A stretch of DNA of 64,000 nt, from positions 62,001-126,000 of the forward strand of contig NZ_JABAEF010000007.1 in assembly GCF_023701945.1 (NCBI RefSeq), given 5' to 3'. The notes beneath the pieces are model-generated. The model saw only the letters and a program-made list of their open reading frames with translations. It searched no databases and was not told the DNA's origin. Each line of letters begins with the position of its first letter. The stretch's first letter is position 1. Shown here in pieces: positions 45,485 to 54,159 of the stretch. Source of the DNA: Rhizobium sp. CG5 (GTDB lineage Bacteria > Pseudomonadota > Alphaproteobacteria > Rhizobiales > Rhizobiaceae). The translations under genes and the position numbers were made by a program.

Positions 45485-46888
45485 TTAGAAGAACGATCCG
45501 GCCATCTCGGGCGAGCCTTCCAGGGCGTGGCCCATGAATTCCAGGGCGCCTTTCAGCCTTTCCCGCGTGATGGAGCCACCCAGGCAGACCCGGACGGCCT
45601 CGTCGGGCGTACCCTCGACGGTGAACGCATCGCTGGCGACGACGCCAATGCCGGAATTGCGCATATGGCTGCCGAAGGTCGACCGGGTCCAGCCATTGGT
45701 CAGCGGCAGCCAGATGTTGAAACTGATCGGATCGGCCCGGTAACTGCCAGCCGGCAGCAGTGCCGCGACGATCTGCTGGCGTGCCGCCGCCTCTGTCCGG
45801 ATGAAGCGCAGAATGGTGTCGGCCGTGCCGTCCTCGATCCAGCGCGTCGCCAGCGCCACATTGAGCGGCGAGGCCATGACATTATTGGCACGCATGGCGC
45901 TGACAAAGGGCCAGGCGGATTTGGTATCCGGGGCCACGACATAGGCAAGCCGCAGGCCGGCACCGATGCACTTGGCCAGTCCGCCGATATGCCAGGTCAG
46001 ATCGGGCGCCATGGTGGCGAGCGGCGGCGGTGCATGGACCGGGATGAAACCATAGGCGTCGTCCTCGACAACAGGCACGTGATATTTGCGGGCCACGGCG
46101 CAGATTTCCTCCCGCCGCTTCTCCGGCACGGTCAGCGTCGTCGGGTTCTGCAGGGTGGGGTTGAGATAGATCGCCTTGGGCGAGCGATTCTTGCAGGCCT
46201 CGGCAAACGCGTCCGGGATGACGCCATGTTGGTCCATGGCCAGGCCGCAGAGGCTGAGGCGCAGCTGCGCGGCAATCGAGCGGATGCCGGGATAGGTGAT
46301 ATTTTCGCACAGCACCGTCTGGCCAGGCTTTGCCAGGTTGGAGAGGATGGCCAGCAGGGCCGGGTGGGCGCCGGGTGTCACGAAGATCCGCTCCTGCGAC
46401 GGCACCAGGCCGCGACGGCTGAGCCAGGCGGCGGCGGCGTCCTTGTCCATCGGCGAGCCGCCAAACCCCTGGTAGCGCAGAAGCGACACCAGATTGGAGG
46501 CGACCGCCGTCAGGCCCTCCTGCATCCGTTCCAGAAGTGCTGGATCATCCGGCTCCGGCGGCATGTTCATGGAAAAATCGATGGCCAGCGTGCGGCGCGG
46601 ATCAGGGGCGGCGGCAAGGGCAAAGCCGCGCCGCTCCTTGTCGACGCCACCGGTCACAAAGGTGCCGCGTCCGACATGGGAACTGACAAGCCCGCGCTTG
46701 TGCGCCTCGACATAACCGCGCGCCACGGTGGTAAAGTCCATGTTCAGCCGCTTGGCCAGGTCGCGCTGCGGCGGCAGGCGGTCGCCGACCACCAGAACGC
46801 CGCTGCGCAGGTCCATCTCGATCAGGTCGGCGATCGCCATATAGCGCGGGCTGGTGCTGCGGGTCAGGTCTGGTAGCCATTCTTTCAT
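45485..46888 (-). CDS. MocR-type regulator (GntR HTH fused to a PLP-dependent aminotransferase-like domain)
   Basis: 467 residues from the ATG at 46888 (MKEWLPDLTRSTSPRYMAIA), with AGGG 7 bp upstream. Residues about 15-85 form a GntR winged helix (LPPQRDLAKRLNMDFTTVAR; SSHVGRGTFVTGG). The rest is a fold-type I aminotransferase-like domain, with YLNPTLQNPTTLT, VVEDDAYGF and the PLP-lysine region GGLAKCIGAGLRLAYV. It is transcribed divergently from the Nit1C cluster and is its likely regulator, sensing an amino compound through PLP. MocR proteins usually bind paired direct repeats, and such pairs are present at both ends of this gene. Confidence 0.9.
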   Translation of the reverse strand: MKEWLPDLTRSTSPRYMAIADLIEMDLRSGVLVVGDRLPPQRDLAKRLNMDFTTVARGYVEAHKRGLVSSHVGRGTFVTGGVDKERRGFALAAAPDPRRTLAIDFSMNMPPEPDDPALLERMQEGLTAVASNLVSLLRYQGFGGSPMDKDAAAAWLSRRGLVPSQERIFVTPGAHPALLAILSNLAKPGQTVLCENITYPGIRSIAAQLRLSLCGLAMDQHGVIPDAFAEACKNRSPKAIYLNPTLQNPTTLTVPEKRREEICAVARKYHVPVVEDDAYGFIPVHAPPPLATMAPDLTWHIGGLAKCIGAGLRLAYVVAPDTKSAWPFVSAMRANNVMASPLNVALATRWIEDGTADTILRFIRTEAAARQQIVAALLPAGSYRADPISFNIWLPLTNGWTRSTFGSHMRNSGIGVVASDAFTVEGTPDEAVRVCLGGSITRERLKGALEFMGHALEGSPEMAGSFF

Positions 46889-46918: not shown

Positions 46919-47192
46919 ATTGACTGTATATTGTCGCAGCTGCGCGCTGTCATCAGGAAAGACGTGCGACTGCCCCCGGCGAGCCAACCCATGCATTTCT
47001 TCACCAAAAACCGCCCAAAGTAGCTCCTGCCAAGTCGAGGCCCGATACGTTGAGCTCCGGAAGCAAATAAATTGATGGCAGATTGAACGCATCAAAATCG
47101 CGCCATAGCGCTGCAGATTTCGGCAGGCATTTGCCCTTGGATTCGACAGAGGTTTCTAAGTTTCTTTTCTATTGAATGCATAATTGAATGTA
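46919..47192. promoter_or_regulatory. Array of ATTGAnnGCA-like repeats between MocR and Nit1C
   Basis: Copies: ATTGACTGTA (46919-46928), ATTGATGGCA (47071-47080), ATTGAACGCA (47082-47091, followed by TCAAA to make an imperfect inverted repeat), ATTGAATGCA (47171-47180) and ATTGAATGTA (47183-47192). Two pairs have spacings of 11 and 12 bp. The last pair ends about 65 bp before the predicted Nit1C transcription start. Likely binding sites of the MocR regulator (inference). Confidence 0.55.
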
Positions 47193-47231: not shown

Positions 47232-47247
47232 TGGCACGGGCTTTGCA
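47232..47247 (+). promoter_or_regulatory. Sigma-54 (-24/-12) promoter of the Nit1C cluster
   Basis: TGGCACGGGCTTTGCA matches the consensus TGGCACG-N4-TTGCW perfectly; GG and GC are exactly 10 bp apart. Transcription should start near 47258, giving a leader of about 40 nt with ribosome site AGAGGAG before the ATG at 47299. This ties the cluster to RpoN and probably to nitrogen status. No clear NtrC site was found upstream. Confidence 0.88.
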
Positions 47248-47298
47248 ATCTTTGAACTGCGCCCACGAGAGGCTCACGTTCAACCAGAGGAGCGATCC

Positions 47299-47781
47299 AT
47301 GCCCGCAGTGACCAAACCGGCCCATGAAAAGGGTGACTTCTTCGTCGACTATGAGGAGAAGGTGTTCGAAGACGTCCAGGCCAAGGAGGGCGACAAAGCC
47401 CTCGTCACCTTCCACACAGTGGCCTTCGAAGGCTCGATCGGCCTGGTCAACCTGCTGCAGGCCAAGCGGCTGAAGCGCAAGGGCTTTGAGACCTCCATCC
47501 TGCTCTATGGTCCGGGCGTGACGCTCGGCGTACAGCGCGGCTTCCCCAAACTCGGCGACGAAGCCTTCCCCGGCCACCTCAACTTCAACAACCAGATCGC
47601 CGGCTTCATGGAAGAGGGCGGCAAGGTCTATGCCTGCCGGTTCGCGCTGCAGGCGCTCTATGGCCATGGCGAGCCGTCGCTGATCCCCGGCATCAAGCCG
47701 ATCAGCCCGCTCGATGTGCTCGACCTCATCCTCATCCACCGCCGCGACGGGGCCTTCATCCTCGACACCTGGACGCTCTGA
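47299..47781 (+). CDS. MSMEG_0572/Sll0783-family nitrogen starvation response protein (Nit1C gene 1)
   Basis: 160 residues, first gene of the conserved Nit1C cluster. The biochemical role is unknown; family members respond to nitrogen starvation. The sequence reads like a small alpha/beta domain similar to DsrE/F proteins ([40 protein letters not shown]), with one Cys in [14 protein letters not shown] that could be functional (inference). It is separated from the remaining genes by 60 bp containing a strong hairpin with a T-run (47789-47818), so it may be made in excess of the others. Confidence 0.88.
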
Positions 47782-47841: not shown

Positions 47842-48879
47842 ATGGACAAGAAAACCGTGCGGGCCGCCGCCGCCCAGATCGCGCCGGATCTGACGTCGCG
47901 CGAAAAAACCATCGCCCGCGTGCTGGAGACGATCCGCGAGGCGGCGTCGAGGGGCGCGGAGCTGATCGTCTTTCCCGAGACCTTCGTGCCTTGGTATCCC
48001 TATTTCTCCTTCGTGCTGCCGCCGGTCCTGTCGGGGCGCGACCATATCAGGCTCTACGAGGAGGCGGTCACGGTTCCGTCGCCCGCCACCGATGCTGTTG
48101 CTGCGGCCGCCCGCGAACACGGCATCGTCGTGCTTCTCGGCATCAACGAGCGCGACCACGGTACCTTATACAATACCCAGCTGCTGTTTGATGCCGACGG
48201 CACGCTGATCCTCAAACGCCGCAAGATCACGCCGACCTTCCACGAGCGGATGATCTGGGGGCAGGGGGATGGCTCCGGCCTCAAGGTGGTCGACAGTGCT
48301 GTCGGCCGCATCGGTGCGCTGGCCTGCTGGGAGCATTACAATCCGCTGGCCCGCTACGCGCTGATGGCCCAGCACGAGGAGATCCACCTCGCGCAGTTTC
48401 CCGGCTCGCTGGTCGGCCCCATCTTCGCCGACCAGATGGAGGTGACCATCCGCCATCACGCGCTGGAAAGCGGTTGCTTCGTCATCAATTCCACCGGCTG
48501 GCTGACGCCCGAACAGATCCAGTCGATCACGCCGGATCCCGGCCTGCAGAAGGCGCTGACCGGCGGCTGCATGACGGCGATCATCTCGCCGGAGGGCAAA
48601 CATCTTGCCCCGCCGATCACCGAGGGCGAGGGCATCCTGATTGCCGATCTCGACATGAGCCTGATCGTCAAGCGCAAGCGGATGATGGATTCGGTCGGCC
48701 ACTATGCCCGCCCTGAACTGCTGCATCTCGTCCTCAACGACAGGCCGACCGCCCCGATGGTCACCCCGGCCGCCCATCCTCTTCCCGAACGGACCCAGAC
48801 AAGGATCGACACCGATGGACACGAGAACCCTTCCCTCGACCGAAACGCTGATCAACGAGTTGCAGTCCTTCGGGGCTAG
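47842..48879 (+). CDS. Nitrilase, Nit1/Nit6803 family (Nit1C gene 2)
   Basis: 345 residues. The Glu-Lys-Cys triad of the nitrilase superfamily is visible: Glu46 ([13 protein letters not shown]), Lys128 (KRRKITPTF) and Cys162 ([10 protein letters not shown]). It hydrolyses nitriles to acids plus ammonia; the Nit1 branch acts on small or aliphatic nitriles, and the cluster has been linked to growth on cyanide as nitrogen source in pseudomonads. The C-terminal tail beyond about residue 320 overlaps the next gene by 65 bp and looks unconserved. Ribosome site AAAGGA. Confidence 0.93.
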
Positions 48880-49933
48880 GCTGGTCGATCCCAAGGCCGG
48901 CCATGAAAGCCGCCGCGGCGGCGCCGGCCCGTCCGACCACAAGGCCCTGACCATCGACGGCATGACCGTGATGGTGCCGGTGCATACGGCACCCGCCTTC
49001 GAGAGCCCCTATGTCGTCGAAAAGCCGGATGAAACTGGCAAAAGCCGCATCAGCCGCGACGGCACTGTGCTGGGCGAAGTCTCCTTTCCGCTGCGGCCAC
49101 GCTTTTACGAGCGCTCCACGGCGGATGGCATTCCCTATTCGCAGATCGCCGTGCTGCATGGCCGCGACGTGCTGGCGACCACGGTGCTGCAGACCTGCAT
49201 CCGCTACCAGAGCCGCACCAAGACCTGTCAGTTCTGCGCCATCGGCCAGTCATTGGCGGCGGGTCGGACCATCGCCCACAAGACGCCCGCGCAGCTGGCT
49301 GAGGTCGCCAAGGCCGCCGTGGAACTGGATGGCGTCAAGCACATGGTTATGACGACAGGCACCCCCAAGGGCGACGACCGGGGTGCCGCCGTGCTGGCTG
49401 ACAGCGCCCGCGCCATCAAGGCCGCTGTCGACCTGCCGATCCAGGGCCAGTGCGAGCCGCCGGAAGACGATCTCTGGTTCGAGCGCATGAAGGAGGCCGG
49501 CATCGACACGCTCGGCATGCATCTGGAGGTGGTCACGCCCGAGGTGCGCGCCCGCATCATGCCCGGCAAGGCGCAGGTGCCGGTGGAGAAATACATGCGC
49601 TCCTTCGAGGCGGCGGTAAAGGTTTTCGGCCGCGGCCAGGTCTCGACCTATATCCTGGCCGGTCTCGGCGATACGCGCGAAGCGATCCTCGACATCTGCG
49701 AACAGCTAGTCGCCATCGGCGTCTACCCCTTCGTCGTGCCCTTCGTGCCGATCGCCGGCACGCCGCTGGAAAGCCATCCCACCCCATCGCCGGCCTTCAT
49801 GCACTCGATCCTCGAGCCGCTGTCGCGCCTGCTGGTCGAGAGCGGGCTGAAATCCGTCGACATCAAAGCCGGCTGCGGCAAATGCGGCGCCTGCTCGGCG
49901 CTGTCGACCTATGAAAGGAGACTGACCGCATGA
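48815..49933 (+). CDS. MSMEG_0568-family radical SAM protein (Nit1C gene 3)
   Basis: 372 residues from the ATG at 48815, inside the 3' end of the nitrilase gene. The first Fe-S motif is [18 protein letters not shown]: Cys128, Cys138, Cys141, that is CX9CX2C instead of the usual CX3CX2C. The TIM-barrel core follows ([15 protein letters not shown] with the glycine motif; [20 protein letters not shown]). The C-terminus has a second Cys group, GCGKCGACS (Cys354, 357, 360), a candidate auxiliary cluster. The reaction is unknown. The 4-bp ATGA overlap couples it to the GNAT gene. Confidence 0.9.
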
Positions 49934-50472
49934 TGTTCGAACCGATCATCCCGTTCAGGACCTCCGAATATCAGATCAAGTTCGCCACCTCAAACTGGGA
50001 ACGGCGGGAAGCTCATGCGCTTCGGCGTGCCGTGTTCTGCGAGGAGCAGAAGATCTTCGAAGGCGACGATCGCGATGCGATCGACGACCATGCCATCCCG
50101 ATCGTCGCGCTGTCGATGCTGGGCGTCGTCGCCGACCAGCTGGTCGGCACCGTGCGCATTCACGAGGCGGAACCCGGCGTTTGGTGGGGATCGCGGCTGG
50201 CGGTGCACGAGGATTTCCGCAAGATCGGCGCACTCGGCGCCACCTTGATCAAGCTTGCGGTCTCTTCCGCCAATGCCATGGGCTGCCACCGTTTCCTTGC
50301 CAATGTCCAGGTGCAGAACGGCTTGCTGTTCCGCCGGCTGCATTGGGACGTGATCGAGGAGTTCGAGATCTACGGCAAGCCGCATCTCAGGATGCAGGCT
50401 GATCTGGCGTTTTACCCGCCCTGTGTGACGCCCGAGACAGGGTTTGTCGCGCTCCCGAAAAAGGCGGCCTGA
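49930..50472 (+). CDS. MSMEG_0567/Sll0786-family GNAT N-acetyltransferase (Nit1C gene 4)
   Basis: 180 residues. Acetyl-CoA-binding region SRLAVHEDFRKIGALGATLI (about residues 80-100) and a terminal strand set around FLANVQVQNGLLFRRLHW. It belongs to the acyltransferase type kept with Nit1C clusters and presumably transfers an acyl group to the pathway's product; donor and acceptor are unknown. A second ATG lies one codon later (49933). It starts inside the stop of the radical SAM gene and ends 2 bp before the next start. Confidence 0.88.
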   Translation: MMFEPIIPFRTSEYQIKFATSNWERREAHALRRAVFCEEQKIFEGDDRDAIDDHAIPIVALSMLGVVADQLVGTVRIHEAEPGVWWGSRLAVHEDFRKIGALGATLIKLAVSSANAMGCHRFLANVQVQNGLLFRRLHWDVIEEFEIYGKPHLRMQADLAFYPPCVTPETGFVALPKKAA

Positions 50473-50474
50473 GC

Positions 50475-51443
50475 ATGTCCTTCGATCTCGTCGCCATCGC
50501 CAACACGCTCCGGGCCAGCGCCGGCATATCCGCCAAGGCAGATATTTCCGCCGTGGCGGCGCGGCTGGGGCTCACCGGCCAGACTGTCGCGGTCGGCGAT
50601 GATTGCGCGGCCATCCCGGATGGCGACGGCTTCCTGCTGTTGGCCATCGAAGGCTTCATCAACGAATTCGTCGCGGCCGATCCGTGGTTTGCCGGCTGGT
50701 GCGGGGTCATGGTCAATATCTCAGATGTCGTCGCCATGGGCGGACGCCCCATCGCCGTGGTCGATGCCGTCTGGGCCAATGGCGAGGACGGGGCAGCCCC
50801 GGTGCTCGACGGCATGCAGGCGGCGGCCGAGACCTTCGGCGTGCCGATCGTTGGCGGCCATACCAATATCCGGACCGACCGCGGCCAGTTGTCCGTTGCG
50901 ATCCTCGGCCGGGCCAGGCGTCTGCTGACCAGTTTCGACGCCAGGCCGGGCGACCGGCTGATCGCCGCCGTGGATCACCGCGGCCGCTACCGCGTACCGT
51001 TCAACAACTGGGAAGCCGCGACAACAGCCCCGCCGGAACGGCTGCGTGCCGACCTCGACATCCTGCCCGACATCGCCGAGGCCGGATTGGCCTATGCCGC
51101 CAAGGATATCAGCCAGGGCGGCATCGTCGGCACGGCGATCATGCTGGCCGAATGCTCCGACGTCGGCATCGAGATCGACCTCAAGGCCATTCCGGTGCCC
51201 GACGGCGTGGCCATGGATCGCTGGCTGCAAACCTTTCCGAGCTTCGGGTATCTGCTCGCGGTGCCGGAGGAAAACGCCGCTGTCGTCCTGGAGCGTTTTG
51301 CTAAGAGAGACATTGTCGCCGCCGTCATCGGCGCGGTGACGCCGGGTTCGCAAATCGCGGTGACTGCGGATGGCAAGCGCGAACTGATCCGCGACCACCA
51401 GGCCACGCCGCTGATGCAACTTGCCAGGGAGGCCGCCCTTTGA
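50475..51443 (+). CDS. Sll0787-family AIR synthase-like (PurM/ThiL fold) protein (Nit1C gene 5)
   Basis: 322 residues. PurM/ThiL-type features: GDDCAAIPDGDGFLLLAIEG (ATP/metal-binding Asp pair), WCGVMVNISDVVAMGGRPIA, GVPIVGGHTNIRTDRGQLSV, and YAAKDISQGGIVGTAIMLAE in the C-terminal domain. This fold uses ATP to activate a carbonyl or phosphorylate a substrate; the specific role in Nit1C is unknown. The stop overlaps the TTG start of the glycosyltransferase. Confidence 0.88.
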   Translation: MSFDLVAIANTLRASAGISAKADISAVAARLGLTGQTVAVGDDCAAIPDGDGFLLLAIEGFINEFVAADPWFAGWCGVMVNISDVVAMGGRPIAVVDAVWANGEDGAAPVLDGMQAAAETFGVPIVGGHTNIRTDRGQLSVAILGRARRLLTSFDARPGDRLIAAVDHRGRYRVPFNNWEAATTAPPERLRADLDILPDIAEAGLAYAAKDISQGGIVGTAIMLAECSDVGIEIDLKAIPVPDGVAMDRWLQTFPSFGYLLAVPEENAAVVLERFAKRDIVAAVIGAVTPGSQIAVTADGKRELIRDHQATPLMQLAREAAL

Positions 51444-52594
51444 CCCGCCCCTTGCGCATTGCCATGCTGACCCATTCGACCAATCCGCGCGGCGGCGTGG
51501 TGCATGCCATGCATCTCAGCGAGGCCCTTGTGGCGCTGGGTCACGAGGTGGTCCTGCACGCACCCGACGCCAGCGGCCACGGCTTCTTCCGCCAGCCGCG
51601 CTGTGGCACCGCATGCTTGCCCGTCGCCCCCGCGTCCACGTCCATGACTGAAATGGTCGAGCAGCGCATAGCCGACTATGTGGCCCATTTCGAACGACCG
51701 TCGGCGCGGGGTTTCGACCTCTACCATGCCCATGACGGCATATCGGGCAATGCACTGGCGACCTTGAAGGCGCGCGGGCTGATCCGCGGATTCGCCCGCA
51801 CCGTCCACCATATCGACCAGTTTGCCGATCCGCGCCTGATGAGCCTGCAACGCTGCTCGATCGACCGCGCCGACCGCTTCTTCACCGTCAGCCGGGTGTG
51901 GCAGGAGATGCTCGCCGCCGAGGGCAAGGCATCGGTCAATGTCGGAAACGGCGTTGATACGAGCCGCTTTTCACCCCGGCAGGACGGGCGGGACATTGGC
52001 TTGCACGCGCGGCTCAATCTGCCGTCAGGTCCCGTCTTTCTCAGCATCGGCGGCGTCGAGGCCCGCAAGAACACGCTTCGCATTCTGGAAGCCTTCGCCC
52101 AGCTCAAGGCGGTCAGGCCGGATGCGCAACTGGTGATCGCCGGCGGCGTGTCGCTGCTCGATCATGGAGCCTATCAAAGCGAATTCCACGCCGTGCTTTC
52201 AGAGTTGCCCGCACTTCGCGGCGCCGTGCACCTGATCGGCGCGGTTGCGGATGAGGACATGCCGGCGCTGTTTCGACTGGCCGATGCGCTGGTCTTTCCC
52301 TCGGTGAAGGAAGGCTTCGGTCTTGTGGTGCTGGAGGCCATGGCAAGCGGCGTGCCGGCCGTCGTCTCCTGCATCGCGCCGTTTACCGAATATCTCTCGC
52401 CCGACGACGCGATCTGGTGCGATCCGCGCAATCCGGCGTCGATCGCCGAGGCCATGATGCTGTCGCTTGCCGAGCCGATCCGCCGCCGGCTGCTGCCTGC
52501 AGGACTTGCCGTCGCCACCCGTCACGGCTGGCAGAAGACCGCCGAGGCCCATATCGCCAGTTATCTTGTACTCAGGGAGCCCGCCCATGCCTGA
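51440..52594 (+). CDS. MSMEG_0565-family glycosyltransferase (Nit1C gene 6), TTG start
   Basis: 384 residues. The start is TTG at 51440, overlapping the previous stop (TTGA), with AGGGAGG 7 bp upstream; the next ATG (51464) would remove the first strand (RIAMLTHSTNPRGGVVHA). GT4-type Rossmann folds: VGNGVDTSRFSP, PVFLSIGGVEARKNTLRILE and the nucleotide-sugar region LVFPSVKEGFGLVVLEAMAS with the EX7E pattern. It probably glycosylates the cluster's product. It overlaps the next gene by 8 bp. Confidence 0.9.
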   Translation: MTRPLRIAMLTHSTNPRGGVVHAMHLSEALVALGHEVVLHAPDASGHGFFRQPRCGTACLPVAPASTSMTEMVEQRIADYVAHFERPSARGFDLYHAHDGISGNALATLKARGLIRGFARTVHHIDQFADPRLMSLQRCSIDRADRFFTVSRVWQEMLAAEGKASVNVGNGVDTSRFSPRQDGRDIGLHARLNLPSGPVFLSIGGVEARKNTLRILEAFAQLKAVRPDAQLVIAGGVSLLDHGAYQSEFHAVLSELPALRGAVHLIGAVADEDMPALFRLADALVFPSVKEGFGLVVLEAMASGVPAVVSCIAPFTEYLSPDDAIWCDPRNPASIAEAMMLSLAEPIRRRLLPAGLAVATRHGWQKTAEAHIASYLVLREPAHA

Positions 52595-52874
52595 AATGCG
52601 CTTTGTCGTCACCTGGCCCGACGGCCGGGACGAGGAATGCTATTCGCCCTCGCTGATCATCAAGGATTTCTTTGCCGAGGGGCAGAGCTATCCGCTGGCC
52701 GATTTCATCGACCGCAGCCGACAGGCGCTGACCATCGCCAGCGATCGGGTGGAGGCCAAATACGGATTTCCCTGTTCGCTCGCCCGCGGCCAGCTTGCCC
52801 GCATCGAGACCGCCGCGAGCCACTTCCATGATCGCGAGGCGGCATCCGTCATCGTGAAGACCTTTCTCGCCTAA
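52587..52874 (+). CDS. MSMEG_0570-family nitrogen starvation response protein (Nit1C gene 7)
   Basis: 95 residues. Small soluble protein, no signal or membrane segment, opening MPEMRFVVTWPDGRDEECYS, a beta-strand pattern seen across the family, with PLADFIDRSRQALTIASDRV as a likely helix. Function unknown; always associated with Nit1C. It has one conserved-looking Cys (EECYSPS) and another in FPCSLARG. It is coupled to the glycosyltransferase by an 8-bp overlap. Confidence 0.88.
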   Translation: MPEMRFVVTWPDGRDEECYSPSLIIKDFFAEGQSYPLADFIDRSRQALTIASDRVEAKYGFPCSLARGQLARIETAASHFHDREAASVIVKTFLA

Positions 52875-52884
52875 GGAGCGAACC

Positions 52885-54159
<1,275 letters not shown>

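Follow-up and report, generated by a model that had tools for sequence, protein, structure and literature searches.

The closest described relatives of the locus studied here are the nit1C clusters of Pseudomonas, in which NitA, encoded divergently, bears the annotation of a sigma-54-dependent regulator of the Fis family (PMC11049912, PMC8567248), so that sigma-54-type control of nit1C is not new in itself. P. oleovorans (pseudoalcaligenes) CECT 5344 resembles Rhizobium sp. CG5 in its cyanide/nitrile structural genes, its divergent regulator, and its link to sigma-54, but the regulator of CECT 5344, NitA, is given in the accessible text of these papers as sigma-54-dependent (Fis-family) itself (PMC11049912, PMC8567248, PMC5333837), whereas that of Rhizobium sp. 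CG5 is of the MocR type and the activator is unlinked. A second comparison is offered by MpaR of P. aeruginosa, a MocR-type protein in charge of genes induced by cyanide, for whose function the PLP lysine is required (PMC10790758). MpaR is likewise tied to cyanide, has an element that precedes the start by about 61 bp, and is likely autoregulated, but its targets are oxidase and neighbouring genes, its motif is palindromic, and the accessible text marks -35 and -10 boxes in a figure legend and leaves RpoN unmentioned (PMC10790758); the likeness drawn here is one of description.

GabR, TauR, PdxR, and EutR also combine a GntR domain with an aminotransferase fold, many such proteins bind direct repeats, and they adjoin their targets; the accessible main text of the MocR regulon survey, in contrast to the present locus, contains no sigma-54 promoter, nitrilase, or cyanide (PMC5320631). 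A regulator type that depends on lineage within one pathway has a parallel in GabR, a sigma-54 activator in B. thuringiensis and a MocR protein in B. subtilis (PMC4279683, PMC5320631). In B. thuringiensis GabR, as the sigma-54 activator, drives its sigma-54 promoter itself; here, by contrast, a MocR protein stands beside such a promoter. In the passages of openly accessible main text that our search covered, no MocR protein was described at nit1C, nor at any promoter of the sigma-54 class. What appears to be new, judging from sequence, is that a conserved sigma-54 promoter is paired with a regulator of the MocR type, and that the candidate sites of this regulator keep a constant phase relative to the -24 box. 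Such a pairing would let a widespread proteobacterial cyanide/nitrile operon serve to test directly how sigma-54 is gated by a regulator that has no ATPase, and would extend the idea of PLP as a cyanide sensor to an assimilation cluster.

The window, by which we mean the whole stretch of 64,000 nucleotides that was analysed, carries a Nit1C cluster identified by eight NCBIfam models together, each over its cut-off. The cluster, its promoter, and the divergent regulator are laid out as follows.

45485 to 46888, reverse strand: MocR-type regulator of 467 aa with a GntR HTH and a class I/II aminotransferase fold
47232 to 47247, forward strand: -24/-12 sigma-54-type promoter, TGGCACGGGCTTTGCA, from consensus match and conservation
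47299 to 47781, forward strand: MSMEG_0572/Sll0783 family protein (NitB position), TIGR04044 with 285 bits (cut-off 110)
47842 to 48879, forward strand: Nit6803-family nitrilase (NitC position), TIGR04048 over cut-off
48815 to 49933, forward strand: MSMEG_0568-family radical SAM protein, start inferred, TIGR04043 over cut-off
49930 to 50472, forward strand: MSMEG_0567/Sll0786 GNAT acetyltransferase, TIGR04045 over cut-off
50475 to 51443, forward strand: sll0787-family AIR synthase-like protein, TIGR04049 over cut-off
51440 to 52594, forward strand: MSMEG_0565-family glycosyltransferase, TIGR04047 over cut-off
52587 to 52874, forward strand: MSMEG_0570-family protein, start inferred, TIGR04042 over cut-off
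52885 to 54159, forward strand: MSMEG_0569-family flavin-dependent oxidoreductase, TIGR04046 over cut-off

The -24/-12 consensus is YTGGCACGN4TTGCW, and every position of TGGCACGGGCTTTGCA fits it, including the GG at -24, the GC at -12, and the spacing between them. As the original prediction held, this is a perfect match at the right distance from the first start codon: 51 bp lie between TGGCACGGGCTTTGCA and the ATG at 47299, where the first gene of the cluster, that of the MSMEG_0572 family, begins, and transcription would be expected to start near 47258. TGGCACN5TTGCA has only this one exact match in the window, where 0.05 were expected and 5 of 100 shuffles had one, and across the genome of 6.5 Mb it matches exactly 9 times, versus once for the backwards pattern; rpoN is represented by one PF04552 match. 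Since 1.3 matches are expected by chance in 64 kb when one mismatch is allowed, the window sequence alone is suggestive, and the reality of the element is decided by its conservation across loci.

Conservation in related genomes had been proposed as a check together with the original prediction. Nit1C loci came from 60 relatives including the genome itself (9 with a match), 397 genomes of the order (41 with a match), 398 genomes of the phylum (16 with a match), samples that partly share genomes, and from the best 80 of at least 476 named loci in a wider scan. Removal of 7 of the 135 loci (L071, L098, L105, L122, L130, L137, and L246) for identical upstream DNA or less than 150 bp of it left 128 distinct upstream regions, 110 non-cyanobacterial and 18 cyanobacterial. 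On a 19-point scale of our own making, 100 of the 110 non-cyanobacterial loci score 17.5 to 19, with 95 reaching the full 19, a degree of conservation that is inflated by kinship among the loci and is in part less striking because the score is bimodal and the distance to the ATG mostly constant. The remaining 10 score 14 or less, and the best score in one mononucleotide-shuffled set of 135 was 17.0. None of the 18 cyanobacterial loci has the element (scores 11.5 to 16), and cyanobacteria are not known to have RpoN. The element is found in 35 of the 41 loci of the order sample and in 15 of the 16 of the phylum sample. Among the 100, the GG, C, and GC are invariant, which is partly forced by the score threshold; the spacer within the element varies, and the distance from TGG to ATG is 63 to 133 bp, mostly 63 to 73 bp. 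At the locus with 133 bp (L249) the element overlaps half-site repeats and may be a chance match. We regard the element before Nit1C as confirmed, at the level of sequence, to be a real and conserved sigma-54-type promoter.

The original prediction treated the activator as an open question, and it was right that the window encodes no enhancer-binding activator, but it overlooked the dedicated divergent regulator encoded at 45485 to 46888. This protein, whose start codon was picked from homologue length, belongs to the MocR subfamily of GntR regulators: its matches to PF00392 (46.9 bits) and PF00155 (57.8 bits) exceed the cut-offs, and it has no further Pfam match. In an alignment of 95 MocR homologues (the partial L111 was left out), each of the PLP-binding residues N248, D276, D277, Y279, and K306 is conserved at 98% or more, and K306 aligns with a lysine stretch of MppQ that we take to contain the PLP-binding lysine. 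Two other identities were rejected. The ectoine regulator EhuR falls away with 467.5 bits against the NF052286 cut-off of 480; Nit1C-type MocR proteins in nine genomes searched score 437 to 468 on this model, and a true EhuR with 700 bits exists besides in R. johnstonii 3841. A NitA-type sigma-54 activator in the divergent slot was likewise rejected, since the neighbour has GntR and aminotransferase domains only and no AAA+ domain.

Of the 110 non-cyanobacterial loci, 96 have a divergent MocR homologue next to the cluster, 88 with the -24/-12 element and 8 without it. The 14 others comprise ten Rhizobiaceae (L113, L115, L127–L129, L131, and L133–L136), two loci whose upstream DNA is too short, L166 (Methylomonas), which has neither MocR nor -24/-12, and L248, where a PAS-PAS-AAA+-HTH regulator occupies the MocR slot and the promoter scores 17.5 of 19. 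Each of the ten Rhizobiaceae genomes carries a MocR protein, 82–84% identical, elsewhere; by coordinates it lies about 770 kb away in R. johnstonii 3841, where its surroundings, viewed by eye, contain LacI-, AraC-, SDR-, and LysR-like genes and give no clue to a ligand. In Rhizobium nepotum (L129), DNA resembling the mocR 5' end and leader was seen by eye about 350–420 bp before nit1C, and the full mocR lies about 4 kb upstream of the cluster.

Upstream of the -24 box lie direct repeats of the half-site TTGANNGYA, 11 or 12 bp apart. They form two candidate operators before nit1C, and a related element precedes mocR.

47172 to 47192, forward strand: proximal candidate MocR operator, half-sites TTGAATGCA and TTGAATGTA, 60 and 48 bp before TGG
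47072 to 47091, forward strand: distal candidate MocR operator, half-sites TTGATGGCA and TTGAACGCA, 160 and 149 bp before TGG
46919 to 46939, forward strand: mocR leader element ATTGACTGTATATTGTCGCAG, one full half-site, the second degenerate

In the 98 sigma-54-type loci counted (L148 and L248 were left out), there are 256 forward half-sites versus 0 in reversed sequences. Of those no more than 170 bp from TGG, 188 of 191 fall in six narrow clusters, at -26/-28, -36/-38, -47/-51, -59/-63, -146/-149, and -155/-160 relative to TGG, which are 10–12 bp apart and in phase with TGG; the clusters were defined post hoc, after inspection of the data, and the loci are related. At least one half-site within the six clusters is present in 88 of the 98 loci, and a strict half-site stands in the two main clusters in 70 and is absent from 28. 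The phase is kept where the ATG is 83–101 bp away (L062, L072, L073, L075, and L083), and in beta and gamma loci the half-site is closer to TTGATCGCA. The paired pattern has 2 hits in the genome of Rhizobium sp. CG5, both at nit1C, and 2–4 hits in each of nine other genomes, 1–2 of them at nit1C, versus 0–2 for the backwards pattern in the same nine.

We assign the half-sites to MocR because a like element follows mocR where the gene has moved. CAATATACNNTCAAT is kept close upstream of the displaced mocR in all ten genomes, and the nit1C half-sites persist there as well; upstream of weaker paralogues (30–40% identity) the half-site was found in 0 of 17 cases. An exception is the adjacent mocR of R. 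hainanense (L184), which has no strict leader element. It is thus most likely that the evenly spaced half-sites would be bound by the neighbouring MocR, and ATTGACTGTATATTG, 31 bp upstream of the mocR start codon, makes autoregulation through the leader element likely. Half-sites of this kind are absent from L248, where an EBP-type regulator takes the place of MocR; TACGAA/TTCGTA-like inverted repeats were seen by eye there, 100–210 bp before nit1C near the start of the NitA-like gene, and are perhaps the binding sites of that divergent regulator.

Eight loci have MocR without -24/-12, seven of them in one clade (SH-aLRT 100) and the eighth in Bosea sp. 117. In a quick, midpoint-rooted tree of 73 of the 95 MocR proteins, retained after thinning, the -24/-12 element changes twice while MocR is kept, both times among sigma-54 users, and this nesting suggests losses of the element. 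In several of the seven, viewed by eye, half-site variants run into a TTGAC-like -35 box. As far as the tree goes, these loci show one and the same regulator kept through a change of promoter class. In the clade of seven (L026, L066, L086, L090, L094, L095, and L096), the glycosyltransferase gene of the cluster is unmatched in six, L026 and L066 among them, and in a tblastn survey in all seven.

The model towards which we lean, with modest confidence, is a two-key gate at the nit1C promoter. RpoN holoenzyme would transcribe the Nit1C operon from the -24/-12 element at 47232 to 47247, and the divergent MocR-type regulator, acting as an activator or as a repressor, would bind the phased upstream half-sites and its own leader. 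Its PLP group would report cyanide or a nitrile derived from it, by analogy with MpaR, whose binding of PLP-cyanide its authors put forward as a hypothesis (PMC10790758). The ATP-driven opening of the promoter would come from an AAA+ activator encoded elsewhere, for which NtrC, signalling a shortage of nitrogen, is the likeliest candidate, so that the operon would be expressed when its substrate is present (MocR) and nitrogen is scarce (NtrC).

Sigma-54 promoters need an AAA+ activator, and regulators linked to them are usually of that kind. Since MocR has no AAA+ domain, sigma-54 here would need an unlinked activator, and with MocR next door the question becomes which AAA+ protein works with it. 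The genome has seven strong activator-type genes and one weak match, none of them in the window, which bears out the earlier claim that no enhancer-binding activator is encoded there. Its NtrC passes the family model (696 versus 558.6 bits), as do the proteins labelled NtrX and NifA; other labels, which we assume to be correct, are HoxA and DctD. A tblastn search with five of the seven as queries, over 6 kb upstream and 9.5 kb downstream where available, found adjacent EBP-like genes in 0 of 128 loci and nonadjacent EBP-like stretches in 5 (L025, L065, L137, L142, and L147); L248, where an adjacent activator is present, was added later. Across the five genomes G000, G034, G019, G222, and G147, the only GAFTGA-bearing activator in common is NtrC. 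NtrX is common to all five and has no GAFTGA, and a regulator like L003 is common to them by best hit, with GAFTGA missing in two.

The original statement that no clear NtrC site is visible upstream holds. The best GCACN7GTGC match upstream in the window has 2 mismatches, a level reached by 205 of 300 shuffles; the best TGCACCN5GGTGCA match in the window has 3, with 36 of 300 shuffles as good. A NifA consensus does not rise above shuffles in the window and is at control level in the 98 loci. In those loci GCACN7GTGC occurs exactly in 3 versus 0 in controls and with one mismatch in 23 versus 12, and the loose pattern TGCNCN7GNGCA with one mismatch is clearly enriched (40 versus 10 in controls), an enrichment that may arise because the half-sites carry GCA. 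With no clear site, the argument for NtrC is one of elimination in five genomes. A nitrogen link has a counterpart in M. smegmatis, where a site of the general nitrogen regulator GlnR is listed at MSMEG0572 in the accessible text (PMC3662644). De novo motif search found a further element between the two candidate operators.

47109 to 47136, forward strand: extra element between the operators, candidate activator site, from de novo motif search

Among 30 near relatives kept after thinning (first gene at least 88% identical), 18 have it at the same place, 120–123 bp before TGG, and in this set the motif reaches 11.8 bits versus 7.1–7.4 in five shuffles; a reversed-sequence control is uninformative because the method is mirror-symmetric. 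In 43 other loci the motif reaches 8.4 bits versus 6.6–6.9 and has no fixed place. The element may be an activator site or may reflect mere shared ancestry.

It is accordingly quite possible, if tentative as a proposal, that MocR works with an activator other than NtrC, for example a lineage-specific one acting at 47109 to 47136 or elsewhere. The lack of a clear NtrC site, the conserved element in near relatives, and the presence of other activators in each genome all fit this, but besides NtrC no GAFTGA activator was common to the five genomes examined.

The sign of MocR action is where a second alternative departs from the two-key gate. MocR may be a repressor only, with NtrC or another activator acting once a ligand frees the promoter, which we consider rather unlikely. 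A MocR encoded near the cio cluster of Pseudomonas seems to act as a repressor, since cio-cluster proteins are cited, as unpublished data, to be constitutive in a P. pseudoalcaligenes MocR mutant (PMC8567248), and the leader element also lies close upstream of the mocR start. However, the half-sites nearest nit1C begin 26–63 bp before TGG, upstream of the promoter and not over it, and at several loci without -24/-12 the repeats, by eye, reach the TTGAC-like -35 from the upstream side. MpaR, of the same type, is reported in the accessible text to be needed for expression (PMC10790758).

The half-sites could alternatively be the upstream activating sequence of the sigma-54 activator, with MocR a bystander. 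A sigma-54 promoter needs either activator sites or an activator acting from solution, and the half-sites have a location typical of activator sites. We think this improbable, given that a like element precedes the moved mocR in 10 of 10 cases, that half-site-like repeats remain in several of the eight MocR loci without -24/-12, that L248 with its EBP-type regulator has no half-site, and that MocR proteins are described as often binding direct repeats (PMC5320631).

We give still less credence to the reading that MocR itself directly licenses or recruits RpoN polymerase from phased sites that start 26–63 bp before the -24, with any AAA+ protein acting from solution or none at all; were it true, a MocR-only switch would let a PLP-type cyanide sensor do a job thought exclusive to enhancer-binding ATPases. 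It is barely credible that TGGCACGGGCTTTGCA arose by chance and that the operon has a sigma-70 promoter driven by MocR alone: about one match with at most one mismatch is expected in 64 kb and the eight MocR loci manage without the element, but 100 of the 110 non-cyanobacterial loci keep it, with a spacer that varies, against 0 of 18 cyanobacterial ones, and it also stands at L248 (17.5 of 19), where an EBP-type regulator replaces MocR.

Two minor observations concern the setting of the locus. The window corresponds to C51:62001–126000, and the same 307-kb contig carries a NifA gene (L004; 763.7 bits versus 528.85) at about 46.8 kb and a response regulator (L001), which we presume to be HoxA/HupR-like, at about 246.6 kb, hinting that contig C51 may belong to a replicon devoted to fixing nitrogen and using hydrogen. 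An MSMEG_0572 homologue is found on 515 of 72,556 plasmid records, 374 of the 515 being from Klebsiella.
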